DNA from: Candidatus Schekmanbacteria bacterium
GTDB lineage: Bacteria; CSSED10-310; JACPHN01
Length of the DNA: 15,855 nt
NCBI GenBank assembly: GCA_016188575.1
Contig: JACPHN010000049.1
Coordinates: forward strand, 1 to 15,855
Direction of reading: 5' to 3'
Shown piece after piece: positions 8,855 through 15,855 of this stretch. The notes beneath the pieces were generated by a model. It was not told where the DNA came from. It did not search any database and worked only from the letters and a program-made list of their open reading frames with translations. A program made the translations under genes and the position numbers. How positions within the stretch are numbered: position 1 is the stretch's first letter; every line of letters begins with the position of its first letter.

Positions 8855-9906
8855 AGGCACGGGGCGTTGTTGTGCTCGGCGCAGTTGTTTGTCTTTCGCT
8901 GGTTGGAGGAATGGCCGTCGCCGGCCCACCACCCGTCCGCGACAACGTCTTCCTGCGGGGCGGACCCGCCGAGCCGGAGTGGGCCGCGAAGCTCAACGGC
9001 GGCACCAGCAGCCTGCGCTCGGGCGACGGCGCCACCGACCTCGCCGCGAGCTCCACGGTCTTTCAGGTCCGCGTCTTGCGTTTGTATAACGGCGGCTGGG
9101 CCGCGTGCAGCGGCTGTGTCGTGCTGGTGTACAGCGGCACCGCTTGGCTGGGCACCTATACCACGGATTCGGCGGGTTATCGCAATATCACCGGCGCACA
9201 ATACCGCGCGGGCACGCCCTACCTGCTCGTCGCCGGGTGGGCCGCAGCCGATAATTCATGCAACAATCCGGACTGGAACAACACCTGGTCCGGGCAGATC
9301 AACGCCGGGGTGCGAAAAGCCAACGTCTCCAGCGTTACCGTTTACGTTAGCGAGATCAAAGGGATCTCAAATACGCGATGGAACAAAATGACGCCGAGAT
9401 ACGACAACCCATTTGCAGACAATATCTATGGAACAACAGAGCATCCTGTTCCTGGTCCGTTCGGATTCGAAAACATGTTAGGCCATGCAGGGAATACCTT
9501 GGGAATCTATCTTACTGGACCATACGATAAACCGCGAGCGATTGGACGACAGCTTGCAGCCGATTACCACGTATATCCTATGCAAGAGGAATTGCGCGAT
9601 AAGGTTCTCAATTTCATTACCATAACCTGGGATATCGATGGCAGCATAGCTGGTGGTTGGAGTGTTAAGACATGTAACTCAGACCCCGTTAAGGCTACCT
9701 GCATAAAGAAAACGGAGTCTTGCGATATCCCGGCAATAGGATATTTACCAAAGATATCATGTCTAGACGACGAACGACTTTGCTATAACGACGGTTATCC
9801 AGAAGATCCGTTGATAAATAATGTGGACATTTTGAATCCAGGTGCAAGATTTATTGAAAGAGAAACGGGAACAATAAATAGCGAAATTTCCCGTTGGAGA
9901 CGCTAG
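8851..9906 (+). CDS. Secreted protein with beta-sandwich-like domain and AT-rich, Cys-containing C-terminal half
   Basis: The start ATG 8851 (351 aa) is chosen because it overlaps the previous stop in ATGA, has GGAGAGG three bases upstream and opens a clear signal peptide (MKARGVVVLGAVVCLSLVGG, cleavage near MAVA-G). The same frame extends upstream but that part is a shadow of the TPR gene. Residues 68-168 (FQVRVLRLYNGGW, VVLVYSGTAWLGTYTTDSAGY, YLLVAGWAA) suggest an Ig-like or carboxypeptidase-regulatory-like beta sandwich. The C-terminal half has cysteines at 275, 284, 291, 304 and 311 and no family I know. From about 9343 the DNA becomes clearly AT-richer than the first half, which hints at a separate origin for the distal part. 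The stop TAG shares its CTAG with the stop of the opposing subtilase-like gene. Confidence 0.8.
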   Translation: MKARGVVVLGAVVCLSLVGGMAVAGPPPVRDNVFLRGGPAEPEWAAKLNGGTSSLRSGDGATDLAASSTVFQVRVLRLYNGGWAACSGCVVLVYSGTAWLGTYTTDSAGYRNITGAQYRAGTPYLLVAGWAAADNSCNNPDWNNTWSGQINAGVRKANVSSVTVYVSEIKGISNTRWNKMTPRYDNPFADNIYGTTEHPVPGPFGFENMLGHAGNTLGIYLTGPYDKPRAIGRQLAADYHVYPMQEELRDKVLNFITITWDIDGSIAGGWSVKTCNSDPVKATCIKKTESCDIPAIGYLPKISCLDDERLCYNDGYPEDPLINNVDILNPGARFIERETGTINSEISRWRR

Positions 9907-11285
9907 CGCCTGCGCTTGCAAATAATACACGTTATCGCCAGCAGAAGGACCAGCGCACTCGTAGGCACTTTTGGTAGGGCAAGTGCGGCCGCGGGATCGA
10001 CCTGGCCGTAGCCGCTCACGCCATCGAAGCCGGGTTCTTCGAGATCGGCCGCGGTGCCGGTCAGCAGCGCCTTGATATCCGCCGTGCGCACGAAACCCTG
10101 CTTTTCCTGCACGAGCGCCGCGATCCCCGTCACCACCGCGGCGCTGATCGAGGTGCCGCACTGCGATAAAGTGTACGGCGTTCCCTCGTAGGGGATAACG
10201 TACCGGCTCTGGCAATCCGGCGCCATGAGATCCGGTTTTGGCCGCACTTCGGTCGTTGGGATGGTGATCTCCGCCGGGCCACGCCCGCTGTAGGGCCGCA
10301 CCGCGTACCGCCCGGGCGCGACCTCGGTCGTCTGATCCAGCGCCCCCACCGTCAGCACCTCGGGTAACGCCGCCACTCCCACGATCGAGCCTTCGTCCAC
10401 TCGAAGTCCTGGCTCGATCGTTGCCGAGATGCCACCCACAGGGCCAGGGAAGTAACAATCGAAACGGATATCGAAAAGCAGCGCAGGTGCTTCCGGCGCT
10501 TTCCATACGGAAATCCATTCCTGGCGATCATAGGAAGTTGGTTCCAGGAATCCGGTCGCCATGGGTTTCACGCCATCGGAATAAAGCTGACCGAGTGGAT
10601 TATGAGCTTGATCATAGAAGCGAATCCGATAGTCGGAAAAATCACTGGCTTGTGGCTCGCTCCACGCAATGGTCGGAAGTGCTTCACAGTCGGCAGGAAC
10701 GTTCACCGTCATGACCGTATTCCCACCGCCAAAGTCATGCTCGCCATTACCAGAATCGACAAACTCTCCGCGATAGTGGGCAGATCCGTAGTCATCGGCT
10801 GGCGAGATGATGAGAGTACCGGATTGAGACGCAGTTATGGCATCGGTTAACCATTTTTCCTCAAATACAAGACCACCGAACATCTGATCATCCATGAAAA
10901 AAATGATGTTCGCGCCAAGGTTCATGAGCTCTTGTGCAGATTGATCTGGAGGACCTCCACCGTATTTGTTAAACAGTAGCTTTGCCCCGGGCGCAACGTC
11001 GTGGATAACTTGCAAATGGCCGAGGCTCAGGCCGCTGCCTTCGTCACCCTCAACGAACTGAATATCACTCGGCAAATCACCGCTGGCGACATAGTTTCTC
11101 CAATCATGCGCCCCTTCACCCACAATGCCGATGGTAACGCCCGCGCCGGTGAGCCCGGTCTGTTGCCGTAGCGCGGCCAGACCGAGCGTCTGATCGACCT
11201 CGGCGGTGACGGCACCCACCGCCCAGGATAGTGCTGGCAGACGCAAGACCAAGGTCAGAATGAGACAGCCGCGAATCAGGCGCAT
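9903..11285 (-). CDS. Subtilase-like secreted protein with C-terminal membrane/sorting segment, catalytic triad not canonical
   Basis: ATG 11285 (460 aa) is preferred to the longer frame because GGAG lies six bases upstream and a signal peptide follows at once (MRLIRGCLILTLVLRLPALS). The fold is that of a divergent S8 subtilase: GLTGAGVTIGIVGEG at 44-58, HDVAPGAKLLF at 95-105, YSGRGP near 332-337, KPDLMAPDC at 350-358 and QCGTSISAAVVTGIAALV at 375-392, with S379 as the nucleophile candidate. The Asp of the usual 'VID/ISDG' motif reads GEG, the HGTH motif is absent, and the oxyanion Asn position appears as SPADDYG. It may be inactive or use other residues. Residues 440-460 (VPTSALVLLLAITCIICKRRR region) form a hydrophobic segment with a basic tail, like CTERM-type anchors. 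The first ten bases overlap the end of the kinase gene, so the two are co-translated. Confidence 0.82.
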   Translation of the reverse strand: MRLIRGCLILTLVLRLPALSWAVGAVTAEVDQTLGLAALRQQTGLTGAGVTIGIVGEGAHDWRNYVASGDLPSDIQFVEGDEGSGLSLGHLQVIHDVAPGAKLLFNKYGGGPPDQSAQELMNLGANIIFFMDDQMFGGLVFEEKWLTDAITASQSGTLIISPADDYGSAHYRGEFVDSGNGEHDFGGGNTVMTVNVPADCEALPTIAWSEPQASDFSDYRIRFYDQAHNPLGQLYSDGVKPMATGFLEPTSYDRQEWISVWKAPEAPALLFDIRFDCYFPGPVGGISATIEPGLRVDEGSIVGVAALPEVLTVGALDQTTEVAPGRYAVRPYSGRGPAEITIPTTEVRPKPDLMAPDCQSRYVIPYEGTPYTLSQCGTSISAAVVTGIAALVQEKQGFVRTADIKALLTGTAADLEEPGFDGVSGYGQVDPAAALALPKVPTSALVLLLAITCIICKRRR

Positions 11286-14200
11286 ATCGTTCTCCAGGAG
11301 GCGAGGAAAACTTGTTTGTGCTCGGGATCGAGATCGGTAGCGATGGCGTCCGCAAGGCGCTTGCACCGCCGCTCGTGCTCGATGCCGGCAAAGCGCTCCG
11401 CGAGCGCGACCGCGGCTTCCAGGGCGAAAGGCAACATGCCGGACTCGAGCCCAAACCTCAGCGCCTGTTGCAGCAACGCCTCGGCGATCGCCGGGTCGCT
11501 TTCCAGGCGCGCGAGCAGCACCCGCCGCACTGAGTACCAGCGGCCCGCGTCCGAGATCTCGGCGAGCCAGCTCAGCGCCCGCGCTCGCTTCTGGGGATCA
11601 CCATCGCGCTGCCACAACGCGACCGCGACGCGCGCCGCGACCGTGAGCGCGTTGTAGCGCAAGTCCTCCGTTGCCTCGATCGGCACGTCGAGCGCCGTAT
11701 CGGCCGCCTGCCGCGCTTCTTGGAGGCGGCCCTGCCGCAGCAGGATACGCCCGAGCGTGAACCAGGCCAGACAGCGCACCTGCGGCGTGCCATGATCGAG
11801 ATGAGGCACGGCATCGCTGGCAATGCCAAGGTCACAACCGATGACGAAGTGCTTGAGCTCGGCAAACGCTTTTGATTGTACACCCAGGTGCGTGGCTTGT
11901 TTCAAGCAAAGTATCGCCAGCATGTATCGCCCTCGCAATCTCTCATATTCTGCGAAAACGCTATGTATATTTGACGCCCGTTGCGGTTGTTTGCAAAATA
12001 CCAAGCTCATAGCTCGCGCGTACCTGCATGCAGGGATTACGTGCCCCGCCAGGACGGCACTGGTCTTGGCGGAATTGAACAGCATATTCCATGTCCACGG
12101 TTGCGCGGAACGGTGCAACCGCCTCGCAATTGCGGCGAGCTTTGTGTACGCGAGGTCGTACCGTCCATCCGCGGTATTGAGCTCCGCTTCGATGGCGGCC
12201 AGCCCGTTCTGCGCCCTCGTGGCCCACGCCGGGACCTGGGCGAGCGCCCGGACGAGAAACAGCCGGGCGGCCGCCACCTGCTCGGTGGTGGTGAGAAACG
12301 TGACAACATAGCTCAGCGCGCAGACGAAGAGCCGCAGCGGCACCCTGGCGAGGTCGAAAGTCGCGAGCGCGGCCATAAACCGCCGCCACGCGTCGGGCAT
12401 CAGCGTATGGTGCCAAAGCGCGAAGACGCGACCAAACTCGCCCTCGAAGCGCAGGTTCTCGTCGCCGGCGCGGACGAGCACGTCCACCATCGCGTCCACC
12501 TCCGCGAGGTCGCGCGGCTCGGGCAGTGGCGTCGCTGCCATGCGCACGAGCGCCGCGCGGGCCACGGCGAGGGGATCGCCCAGCTCCCGCGCGATGACTT
12601 CGAGCTTGCCGAGCGCGTCGTGCAGCCCGGGCGCGCTCGCGTCTCGAAACTCGAAGTACGTCCACGCCCTGGCGTGCTGGCCGATGAATCGGTCGGCGGC
12701 GCTGAGCCAGAGAGCGTCCTGCTCGCAGCGATCCGCGATCTCGATCACCCGGTAGGCCGGCAGCTCGCGCTCGTGGCTGTCGGCCAGCAACGAGGCGCCC
12801 AGCCGGCCGGCCTCGCGCCGCGCGCTGAGGGAGCCATCCACGGCGCACAGCTCGAAGGCCCGCTGGGGGTTTCGCGTTTCGACGATGGCGGCAATCGCGG
12901 CTCGGTCCAGTCCGTCCGGTGGCCGGGCGCGCAGCGACGCGGCCAAGAACGCTTCGCCAAGCTCGGCGGTGCTGTCTCCAAGCACGACCCCCGGCAGGTC
13001 CCAATCCGGTTCCGCCACGCCCAACGCCCGCGCGAGCCTGTCCCGGTCCACCGGCCCCGCGGCCAGGGCGAGCGCCCCGAGTAACCGACGCGCGTCCGTC
13101 CCGAGCCCTGCCACCAGCGTCTCGCGCCGCGCGAGGATCTCCGCGTCCGCGAGCGCCGCCTGGTCGATCTCCACCCAATCGAGGTACCACGCCAGCGTCT
13201 CGGTGCGCCTGGCGGTACCGGTGGACACCATCGCCCGCAAGAGCCGCACCGCGAGCCCGGTCTTGCCATTGGCCGCGAGCACCAACTTCGCCGCGCGGTC
13301 CTCCGCCTCCGCGACCTCGCCGAACGCGGCCCCGAGCAGCTCGCGCGCGCCCTCCACCGTCAGCGCCGGGATCTCCACCCCCTGCGCCGCTCCGTCGGCA
13401 TCGCCGATCGCTACCCGCGACTCGGCATCGGGCACGCCCTCGATCGCCGCCAGGCTCGCGATGGTCGCGAGCAGCCGCGACCGGCCGCTCTCCGCCGGCC
13501 CGCGCAGCCAGATAAGCGCGCGGGGTTCATGGCGCAGGATCTCGATCGCCGCGTTGGCGACCGCCCGCGCCGCGCTTGTGAGCGCGGGCGCCCGCAGGTG
13601 ACTCGCGACGATCGCCGGCCAATCCGTGGCGTCATCCCCAAGAGCCTCGTCCCAGGTCGCGAGGATTTCCATCGCCGAGCGCGGGCGCTTCTCGGGATGC
13701 GGATTGAGGCACCGAAACAACACCGGTTGTACGTCCCGCGGCGCGCCGATCGCGTCCTCGATGTCCGGCATCCAACTGAACCGCGCCTCGAGGTCGCCGT
13801 CCGCGAACGGCACCCGGCCCGCATAGATGCGCAGGGCGATGAGCCCGAAGGCGTAGTAATCGCTGCGCGGCGACGGCATCATGGCGGCGAAGTCCGGGTG
13901 GCTGTCGCGGCAGGCAGGCACCAGGCGAGCCAACATCTCGGGCGCGGCCCAGGCGAGCGTGCCGCCAGCCCCACCGCCGGCCGCCGCGACCTGCCGCGCC
14001 AGGCCGAAGTCCGCGATCTTCGGCACCGGCGCGCCGTCGGTTCCCCGCTCGATGAGGATGTTCGCCGGCTTGAGGTCCAGGTGCAGGATGCCGCTGGTTT
14101 CCAGATAGACCAGGGCCGCCAGCGTATCGCGCAAGAACCGCGTGGCGGCCTGTCCGCGCAAGGCCGCGCTTCGCTCCGGGTCGTCCAGCCATTCCTGCAG

Positions 14201-15855
14201 CGAGCCCGGCAGGTATTCCATGACGAGTCCGACGGCGGCGAGCTCGGGGTCGTGGACGACATCGAGCATGCGGACGATGTTGGGGTGCGCGAAGGCGCTG
14301 AGCGTGCGCATTTCGTCGCGGAAGCGTGCCGCGGCGCGCGCGTCGGCCATGCGCGTCACCTTCACGGCGACCTGTCGGCCGTCCAGCTCCCCGCGAAACA
14401 CCATCCCCATCCCGCCCTGGCCGAGGAAGGACAGCAGTCGACAGGAGCCGATGTGGCCGCGGGCGAGAAGCTCGTCGGGGAAGAGGGAATTTCGCGTTGC
14501 GCGTCGCGGGTTTGGAGCTTCGGGTTGCGCGTTCAGCTCCGGGCCTTCCCGGGCTCGCGGGGGGAGGTGAAAAGGGGGGCCGCCAGGCGGTGGGCTCAGG
14601 GTTTCCTGGGTCACCTCGGAACCGGAAGCCGGGAGATCGGCGCACGGGGCCGACGACCGGCGGCCGGAGTCTTCGCGCGCGAAGCTCGAAACCCCAAACA
14701 CGGAACCGACCTCCCACGTCCCGTCGTACCCGCGCCGCAGCCGCCCCGCCGCGACCTGCTCCCCCAGCCAGTCGATCAGCGTCCCCGGCAAGCGCGGTGC
14801 CGCCGACATGAGCTCCGCCGCGTCCGCCGCGAGCGGCCCGCCGAGCACGGCCCGGCTCAGCTCCGCCGCCGGCCCCGCTGCCAGCGCTTCGAGCCGTCGC
14901 ACCCGCGCGCCCAGGCCCACCAGCGCGTCTTCCGATTCCGCGGTCACCAGGGCCACGCCCGCGAGGCGCGCCAACAACGCCTCGACGAATGCGCGGGTGG
15001 CCTCCGACGCCGCGTCGAGCCGTTCGAGAATCAGCGCCGACGCGCTCTCCCAGGTCGGCGCCAACGCCCGCGCCACCGTCTCGGCCGCCCCGGCGTCGAG
15101 CGCCCCGATCCCCGCGGCCGCGAGCTCCGCGCCGGGATGCACCCGCCGCACCCGCGCCACCAGCTCCTCGGCAACCGCGCCTGCCGCGACCCGGTCGAAA
15201 CGCAGCCGCACCACCAGGAGCGACGCGCGCTCCCACGCCACGCGAGCCTCCGTCGCCAGGCGGTGCTTGCCACTGCCCGCCGGGCCGACCAGGCACAGGC
15301 GCGGCCCCGCGTTCCCCGACCGGCAAACCGCCCAGGCGGCCTTCGCAATCTCGGCCAACTCATCCTCCCGCCCGACGAGCCGCGTCGCGGGCAAGTCCAG
15401 GTAGCTGATCGCCGCGGGCGGGAGCAAGCGATCCCGCTCCGCGCCCAGCTCCGCCCACGCCGCGAGCCGCGCGCCCAGCACCCCTGGAAACGGCCGCGCC
15501 TCTGGCGCCAGCGCGAAGCACTCCCGCAGCACCGCTTCGAGCTCCACGGGAAACGGCGCCACGATCTCGCCGGGCCAGCGCGCCGGCTGGGCCTGCTCGG
15601 CGCGGCCGGCGGCGTCGAACGTGCGCACCGGAAACGCCGCCCGACCGCACCACAGCTCGTACAACACGCAACCGAGTGAAAAGATGTCGCTCCGCGGCAC
15701 GGCGTCGATCGCCCGGCGCGACTGCTCGACCGGCATCGCCCCCGGCGTCCCGAACATCTCGCTCTTGCCGGTCTGCCGCATCGAGCTCCAAAGATGCGAC
15801 GCCGGCAGCTCCGCGACGATGCCGAGATCCATCAGCGTCGCGTGACACCCTGCGC
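11276..15855 (-). CDS. Giant double kinase-ATPase signalling protein with helical repeats (5' end outside window)
   Basis: The frame stays open past ATG 15832 to the right edge, so at least 1526 residues are present and the N-terminus is missing. Numbering is from that ATG. Module 1: a Ser/Thr kinase C-lobe (MDLG at 1-4 in place of DFG, FGTPGAMPVEQ at 27-37, SDIFSLGCVLYEL at 48-60), then an AAA/NACHT-like ATPase with Walker A GPAGSGKH (183-190) and Walker B ALILERLD (266-273). A Pro-rich linker spans about 380-455. Module 2: a complete kinase (GQGGMGMVFRG at 471-481, K491 in VAVK, HLDLKPAN at 584-591, DFG at 608-610, APEM near 630), then a shortened ATPase remnant with GPAESGRS (778-785) lacking the Lys. 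About 600 residues of TPR-like helices complete the protein. Kinase-AAA-TPR proteins of the PknK type are known signalling regulators; the doubled form is unusual. It is the first gene of an operon with the subtilase-like protein. Confidence 0.9.
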   Translation of the reverse strand, partial: AGCHATLMDLGIVAELPASHLWSSMRQTGKSEMFGTPGAMPVEQSRRAIDAVPRSDIFSLGCVLYELWCGRAAFPVRTFDAAGRAEQAQPARWPGEIVAPFPVELEAVLRECFALAPEARPFPGVLGARLAAWAELGAERDRLLPPAAISYLDLPATRLVGREDELAEIAKAAWAVCRSGNAGPRLCLVGPAGSGKHRLATEARVAWERASLLVVRLRFDRVAAGAVAEELVARVRRVHPGAELAAAGIGALDAGAAETVARALAPTWESASALILERLDAASEATRAFVEALLARLAGVALVTAESEDALVGLGARVRRLEALAAGPAAELSRAVLGGPLAADAAELMSAAPRLPGTLIDWLGEQVAAGRLRRGYDGTWEVGSVFGVSSFAREDSGRRSSAPCADLPASGSEVTQETLSPPPGGPPFHLPPRAREGPELNAQPEAPNPRRATRNSLFPDELLARGHIGSCRLLSFLGQGGMGMVFRGELDGRQVAVKVTRMADARAAARFRDEMRTLSAFAHPNIVRMLDVVHDPELAAVGLVMEYLPGSLQEWLDDPERSAALRGQAATRFLRDTLAALVYLETSGILHLDLKPANILIERGTDGAPVPKIADFGLARQVAAAGGGAGGTLAWAAPEMLARLVPACRDSHPDFAAMMPSPRSDYYAFGLIALRIYAGRVPFADGDLEARFSWMPDIEDAIGAPRDVQPVLFRCLNPHPEKRPRSAMEILATWDEALGDDATDWPAIVASHLRAPALTSAARAVANAAIEILRHEPRALIWLRGPAESGRSRLLATIASLAAIEGVPDAESRVAIGDADGAAQGVEIPALTVEGARELLGAAFGEVAEAEDRAAKLVLAANGKTGLAVRLLRAMVSTGTARRTETLAWYLDWVEIDQAALADAEILARRETLVAGLGTDARRLLGALALAAGPVDRDRLARALGVAEPDWDLPGVVLGDSTAELGEAFLAASLRARPPDGLDRAAIAAIVETRNPQRAFELCAVDGSLSARREAGRLGASLLADSHERELPAYRVIEIADRCEQDALWLSAADRFIGQHARAWTYFEFRDASAPGLHDALGKLEVIARELGDPLAVARAALVRMAATPLPEPRDLAEVDAMVDVLVRAGDENLRFEGEFGRVFALWHHTLMPDAWRRFMAALATFDLARVPLRLFVCALSYVVTFLTTTEQVAAARLFLVRALAQVPAWATRAQNGLAAIEAELNTADGRYDLAYTKLAAIARRLHRSAQPWTWNMLFNSAKTSAVLAGHVIPACRYARAMSLVFCKQPQRASNIHSVFAEYERLRGRYMLAILCLKQATHLGVQSKAFAELKHFVIGCDLGIASDAVPHLDHGTPQVRCLAWFTLGRILLRQGRLQEARQAADTALDVPIEATEDLRYNALTVAARVAVALWQRDGDPQKRARALSWLAEISDAGRWYSVRRVLLARLESDPAIAEALLQQALRFGLESGMLPFALEAAVALAERFAGIEHERRCKRLADAIATDLDPEHKQVFLASWRTICA
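14508..14694. repeat. Inverted repeat bounding the linker between the two kinase-ATPase modules
   Basis: GGGTTTGGAGCTTCG at 14508-14522 matches the reverse complement of 14680-14694 (GGGTTTCGAGCTTCG) at 14 of 15 positions, enclosing 157 bases. On the minus strand, next to the first arm, CGCGCAACCCGAAGCTCC is repeated about ten bases later as CGCGCAACGCGAAATTCC (15 of 18 identical). This 'AACCCGAAGCTCCAAACCCGCG' style of text is, from memory, typical of degenerate intergenic repeats in some GC-rich genomes. Here it is translated and coincides with the Pro-rich, low-complexity linker (about residues 380-442) of the double kinase. Confidence 0.55.

Follow-up and report, generated by a model that had tools for sequence, protein, structure and literature searches.

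Two dispersed repeat families, translated in frame, make up the linker between two kinase-ATPase modules of a bacterial protein

Translated palindromic repeats have precedents in MITEs, among them the Rickettsia palindromic elements (RPE; PMC10969869, PMC2229807). These elements (Ogata et al. 2000, reviewed in the two papers just cited) are short palindromes that occur between genes and are also translated in unrelated proteins, and the peptide that they encode is reported as conserved (PMC10969869). REPs, which are GTAG/CGTC-tagged, include intragenic REPs in several species, and CGTC repeats have been described with a CGTC tag, a stem of 8–9 bp that starts with A-T pairs, and a loop of 4–5 bases (PMC3733652). 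Heptameric simple repeats are described in Xanthomonas and Nostoc (PMC4692102), and TAACTGA repeats in Beggiatoaceae (PMC4679880). Searching the literature, we found no report of intergenic repeats that are translated as interdomain linkers.

Here we analyse a window of 15,855 nucleotides that spans the full length of contig C153, in a 9.2-Mb assembly of 275 contigs. The analysis rests on sequence alone, that of a single draft assembly with no close relatives. The linker that joins two kinase-ATPase modules in this window is very probably a decayed composite of two repeat families (families H and G), translated in frame, that would serve as a sequence-independent flexible spacer and most likely came from a gene fusion through a repeat-filled spacer. 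The closest precedent is RPE, in that short palindromic repeats lie both between genes and in frame inside unrelated proteins. The likeness is one of description, with no sequence relation or membership claimed; in contrast to RPE, the arms are built of degenerate 7-base units, the element is a two-family composite at a domain joint, and paralogues translate different frames rather than a conserved peptide. Family G resembles REPs in being a dispersed hairpin whose copies lie outside genes for the most part and inside them in some cases, and its canonical copies read CCGTCCCTTCCCCCGC..., with CGTC ahead of the stem. Unlike in CGTC REPs, the stem is longer than 8–9 bp and lacks leading A-T pairs, and no dedicated transposase is linked here. 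The heptamers of Xanthomonas, Nostoc and Beggiatoaceae are likewise dispersed, mainly intergenic 7-base units, but here the unit is different and degenerate, and forms inverted arms rather than one-way arrays. This linker is set apart from all these systems by its two-family make-up, by its position where two domains meet, and by a reading frame that differs between paralogues.

The gene and domain layout of the window is as follows.
11276–15853, minus strand: open reading frame (ORF) encoding the rest of kinase 1, AAA_16 ATPase 1, the repeat linker, kinase 2, ATPase 2 and TPR, with its 5′ end cut by the contig end
14963–15382, minus strand: ATPase 1 (AAA_16), residues 158–297 of the ORF, by domain match
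14480–14695, minus strand: translated repeat linker, with five further genome copies at 84–88% identity and a Ka/Ks of 0.94
13661–14434, minus strand: kinase 2 (Pkinase), residues 474–731 of the ORF, by domain match
9903–11366, minus strand: subtilase (Peptidase_S8) gene downstream of the kinase-ATPase-TPR ORF, with a similar gene after the C207, C253, C110, C224 and C217 paralogues

Another contig, C16 (L066:3-785), carries the N-terminus of kinase 1. The borders of the AAA_16 and Pkinase domains place the linker at approximately residues 387–458. The original prediction described this segment as low-complexity and Pro-rich, unlike the folded domains on each side, and its composition agrees: proline accounts for 18% and serine for 12%, while hydrophobic residues (ILVFMWYC) make up 15%, compared with 30–34% in the flanking domains. 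PADLOC matched the kinase only as a generic kinase, and the NCBIfam matches fall below curated cut-offs; both were set aside. In most family members the kinase-ATPase-TPR gene is followed by the subtilase gene, a recurring two-gene unit. Proteins of the kinase-ATPase-TPR type are very numerous in one genome (G000), in which the kinase 1-ATPase 1 segment finds 96 matches.

Within the linker, two repeat arms enclose a hairpin core.
14508–14522, plus strand: one arm of the reported 15-nt inverted repeat, from a reading of the sequence
14680–14694, plus strand: the other arm of that inverted repeat, from the same kind of reading
14671–14705, minus strand: 5′ heptamer arm (GTTTGGGGTTTCGAGCTTCG...); on C224 and C207 it matches the C91/C66 heptamer elements
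14487–14534, minus strand: 3′ heptamer arm (GCGCAAC CCGAAGC TCCAAAC CCGCGAC GCGCAAC GCGAAAT); array length differs by 21 or 28 nt among paralogues
14534–14593, minus strand: core, a degenerate copy of the family G hairpin CACCTCCCCCCGCNNGCGGGGGGAGG; best part 14537–14570, similar to intergenic copies

The 15-base inverted repeat was recovered with its single mismatch, and an inverted repeat of this quality arose in only 1 of 300 dinucleotide shuffles of 14480–14710. The imperfect direct repeat was also recovered, as 19 nt at 84% identity (14486–14504 and 14514–14532); its offset is 28, or four times seven, since both copies belong to a degenerate heptamer array. The inverted-repeat arms and the direct repeat are thus degenerate 7-base units. 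The whole linker is predicted to fold as a single nested palindrome (−105.5 kcal/mol, z −3.3, matched by 0 of 200 shuffles). The core is 81–85% identical over 34–42 nt to intergenic copies on C90, C220 and C161, and 76% identical over 62 nt to the C209 copy. A second forward frame is, as had been noted, open through the window's linker alongside the coding frame, although an open frame by itself is weak evidence in GC-rich DNA.

Pattern searches of the genome and of selected sequence stretches place both components in dispersed families. The linker arms (CGAAACTC) belong to family H, which occurs at about ten other sites, and the core hairpin (CTCCCCCCGCNNGCGGGG) to family G, which occurs at more than 60, in both cases mostly between genes. 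Specifically, the family H pattern MAACNCGMAACNCGMAACNC matches 19 times in the genome, with no match for the reversed control and none in seven relatives from the phylum. Outside the linkers, family H copies lie mostly between genes in a codon-usage scan, and many are palindromes with heptamer arms; the C91 copy folds at z −9.3, and a 79-nt subfamily has five copies that are 91–100% identical and have differing flanks. The family G pattern CYCCCCCCGCNNGCGGGG has 118 strict strand matches, a count in which one palindromic site may score on both strands, and none in the control. In the same scan, 52 of the 60 family G sites examined are intergenic, though 72–78% of those loci are coding, as called by a home-made codon-usage score trained on this genome's long ORFs rather than by a published gene finder. 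The many weak matches of the linker across the genome were considered as heptamers, a reading that was rejected, as they are the core hairpin. An Rfam search at E ≤ 1 gave no match. In sum, the elements are short dispersed palindromes, mostly intergenic, and the outcome that would have counted against the original prediction, arms with no further copies in the genome, is contradicted: they recur, for the most part between genes.

Two observations bear on mobility. The copy on C165 (L104:193-271), a 79-nt heptamer palindrome, lies out of frame inside a primase-type-looking gene, and, among the family copies, it alone is flanked by the 9-base direct repeat TGACCCTGG, a possible target-site duplication. 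The genome also has eight Y1 transposases; one of them, of IS200 type (C154:572-925), sits roughly 0.2 kb away from a family G hairpin (C154:1147-1168) and may be a source of mobility.

Copies of both families also stand in frame inside unrelated protein genes. Family H is translated in the C91 subtilase, ahead of the peptidase domain, and in a TnpB-like protein on C223 (L101:1093-2208), between the HTH_OrfB and TNB domains, where the heptamer palindrome presumably replaces a segment usual in TnpB proteins at that place. Family G is translated in ATPase 2 of C207 and in two PKS stretches between domains. A single ORF (L146:513-2672) joins an RmlD reductase domain (residues 33–316) to a DegT aminotransferase domain (residues 374–711), with a family G repeat at residue 332, the joint. 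Further in-frame family G cases include one inside a glycosyltransferase, so domain joints are not the sole place of translated copies.

The linker evolves as neutral sequence within a retained frame. Its Ka/Ks over five copies is 0.94 (bootstrap 0.59–1.6), compared with 0.28 (0.19–0.40) for kinase 1-ATPase 1 and 0.24 for the kinase 2 N-lobe in five copies, while dS is equal in the linker (0.156) and kinase 1-ATPase 1 (0.155). The linker of C253 has a 32-nt deletion at its start, is shorter at its end by 28 nt (four heptamers), and has gained 3 nt; as a result its DNA is read in another frame, with the predicted peptide RARRLGRPVVGSARRSPGFRFR..., before kinase 2 comes back in frame. The linkers of C224 and C252 are both longer by 21 nt, with a further 6 nt in C224 and 3 nt in C252. 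Every net length change keeps the frame in all six copies, from which, given the indel events, we infer that openness of the linker matters. The encoded peptide, by contrast with that of RPE, is not conserved among paralogues. Together with the mostly intergenic location of the dispersed copies, this neutrality strongly supports the original prediction that the linker is intergenic-type repeat DNA under translation.

The five further linker copies, on C252, C207, C253, C110 and C224, are all in the same type of ORF, each near a contig end. These ends coincide with an N-terminal module common to the paralogues, presumably one that collapsed in the assembly. The copies have in common kinase 1, ATPase 1, the linker and the kinase 2 N-lobe, and past the kinase hinge (VMEYLP) identity collapses between different C-terminal types. 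The linker as a later recombination point was rejected, as it is at the kinase 2 hinge, and not at the linker, that identity falls off. C98 and C217 have a different N-terminal kinase, with neither ATPase 1 nor the repeat, on related C-halves; in particular, C252 and C98 are 71–81% identical in their C-halves and unrelated before kinase 2. This combination, together with the break at the hinge, marks the family as a mosaic. Downstream of the linker, the frame is broken in two of the six paralogues, C252 (L009, approximately 1700–1840) and C110 (L012, in the kinase 2 activation segment). They may be pseudogenes or assembly errors, with constraint perhaps relaxed, and pairs that include either of them are still constrained in kinase 1-ATPase 1. 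The Gly-loop region of kinase 2 in C110 (L012, approximately 10440–10500 plus flanks) carries a further in-frame insertion of 38 residues, with GAATGATG-type heptamer arms in inverted orientation; by pattern it is the sole such site in the genome, and GAATG heptamers occur only in C110.

Concerning origin, it had been proposed that two adjacent kinase genes fused through their intergenic repeat or that a small mobile repeat inserted in frame. The translated repeat that both versions share is borne out, and, judging from the arrangement of domains and paralogues, the balance leans towards fusion through a spacer rather than insertion at a joint already present. First, the first module (module A) stops before the TPR part of this genome's ordinary kinase-ATPase-TPR proteins, as a truncated gene would. 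Second, N-terminal modules have been swapped among paralogues. Third, the RmlD-DegT fusion runs through one of the same repeats. The fusion step itself was not observed and no ancestor is seen in the data: neither an unfused orthologue nor a linker-less module A was found in the data searched, and module A has no orthologue in 60 relatives or in the genome contigs searched. Insertion of a palindromic repeat, in the manner of RPE, into a protein that already had kinase 1, ATPase 1 and kinase 2 would share the repeat-tether part of this explanation and differ in origin only, and we consider it possible but the less probable course. The same repeats are in frame inside single-gene proteins (the C91 subtilase and the C223 TnpB), the out-of-frame C165 repeat indicates that insertion into genes does occur, and C98 and C217 are dual-kinase paralogues whose joint has no repeat. 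However, these two are not empty sites, because their N-terminal module is unrelated and has no ATPase 1; moreover, the linker is a two-family composite, as a spacer would be, and every known copy of module A carries the repeat.

Three other readings fare worse. The linker DNA or RNA could be functional in place, as an internal terminator, processing hairpin or promoter between the halves, and both its strong predicted fold (z −3.3) and the proposal that REP-type repeats act in RNA (PMC3733652) would fit. The linker hairpins, however, are degenerate compared with the intergenic copies, C253 retains no 12-nt inverted match at one mismatch or fewer, and Rfam offers no family, which makes such a function improbable. 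It is still harder to maintain that this is an ordinary low-complexity linker selected as protein, with repeats due to chance or to convergence in GC-rich sequence. Linkers rich in Pro and Ser commonly separate domains, and slippage could yield degenerate heptamers, but the neutral Ka/Ks, the frame switch of C253, the nested inverted repeats, and intergenic family members with zero control matches largely refute it. Least credible is a contingency (phase-variation) switch in which one heptamer gained or lost would put kinase 2 out of frame: the arrays do differ by three and four units among paralogues, and 7 is not divisible by 3, yet degenerate units lower slippage, no copy is out of frame at the linker, and such arrays are mostly intergenic.

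We return to fusion through a repeat-filled spacer as the most likely origin. A truncated kinase-ATPase gene would have been joined through such a spacer to a kinase-ATPase-TPR gene, leaving a composite of heptamer-armed inverted repeats around a GC-rich hairpin to be translated between ATPase 1 and kinase 2. Selection would then act on the linker to stay open and to keep a length that is a multiple of three, with the amino acids free. Once joined, the N-terminal module, comprising kinase 1, ATPase 1, the linker and the kinase 2 N-lobe, would have been copied onto different C-terminal halves, probably spreading by recombination at the kinase hinge with the repeat as a passenger.

In the linker, non-coding repeat DNA has been recruited as protein. 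It is a clear natural example, backed by comparisons among paralogues, in which the sequence is neutral and constraint falls on the frame only, and the same repeat DNA is translated in two frames in different gene copies. More tentatively, spacer repeats might in this lineage be a recurrent route to multidomain proteins, with stop-free palindromes joining neighbouring genes as frame-tolerant linkers, as perhaps in the kinase-ATPase, RmlD-DegT, PKS and AAA proteins. Annotated Pro/Gly-rich stretches in such genomes, for example LPPLAGGG, are translated repeats and not domains. If the domain-joint pattern is general, gene fusion in bacteria without a linker evolving first becomes testable.
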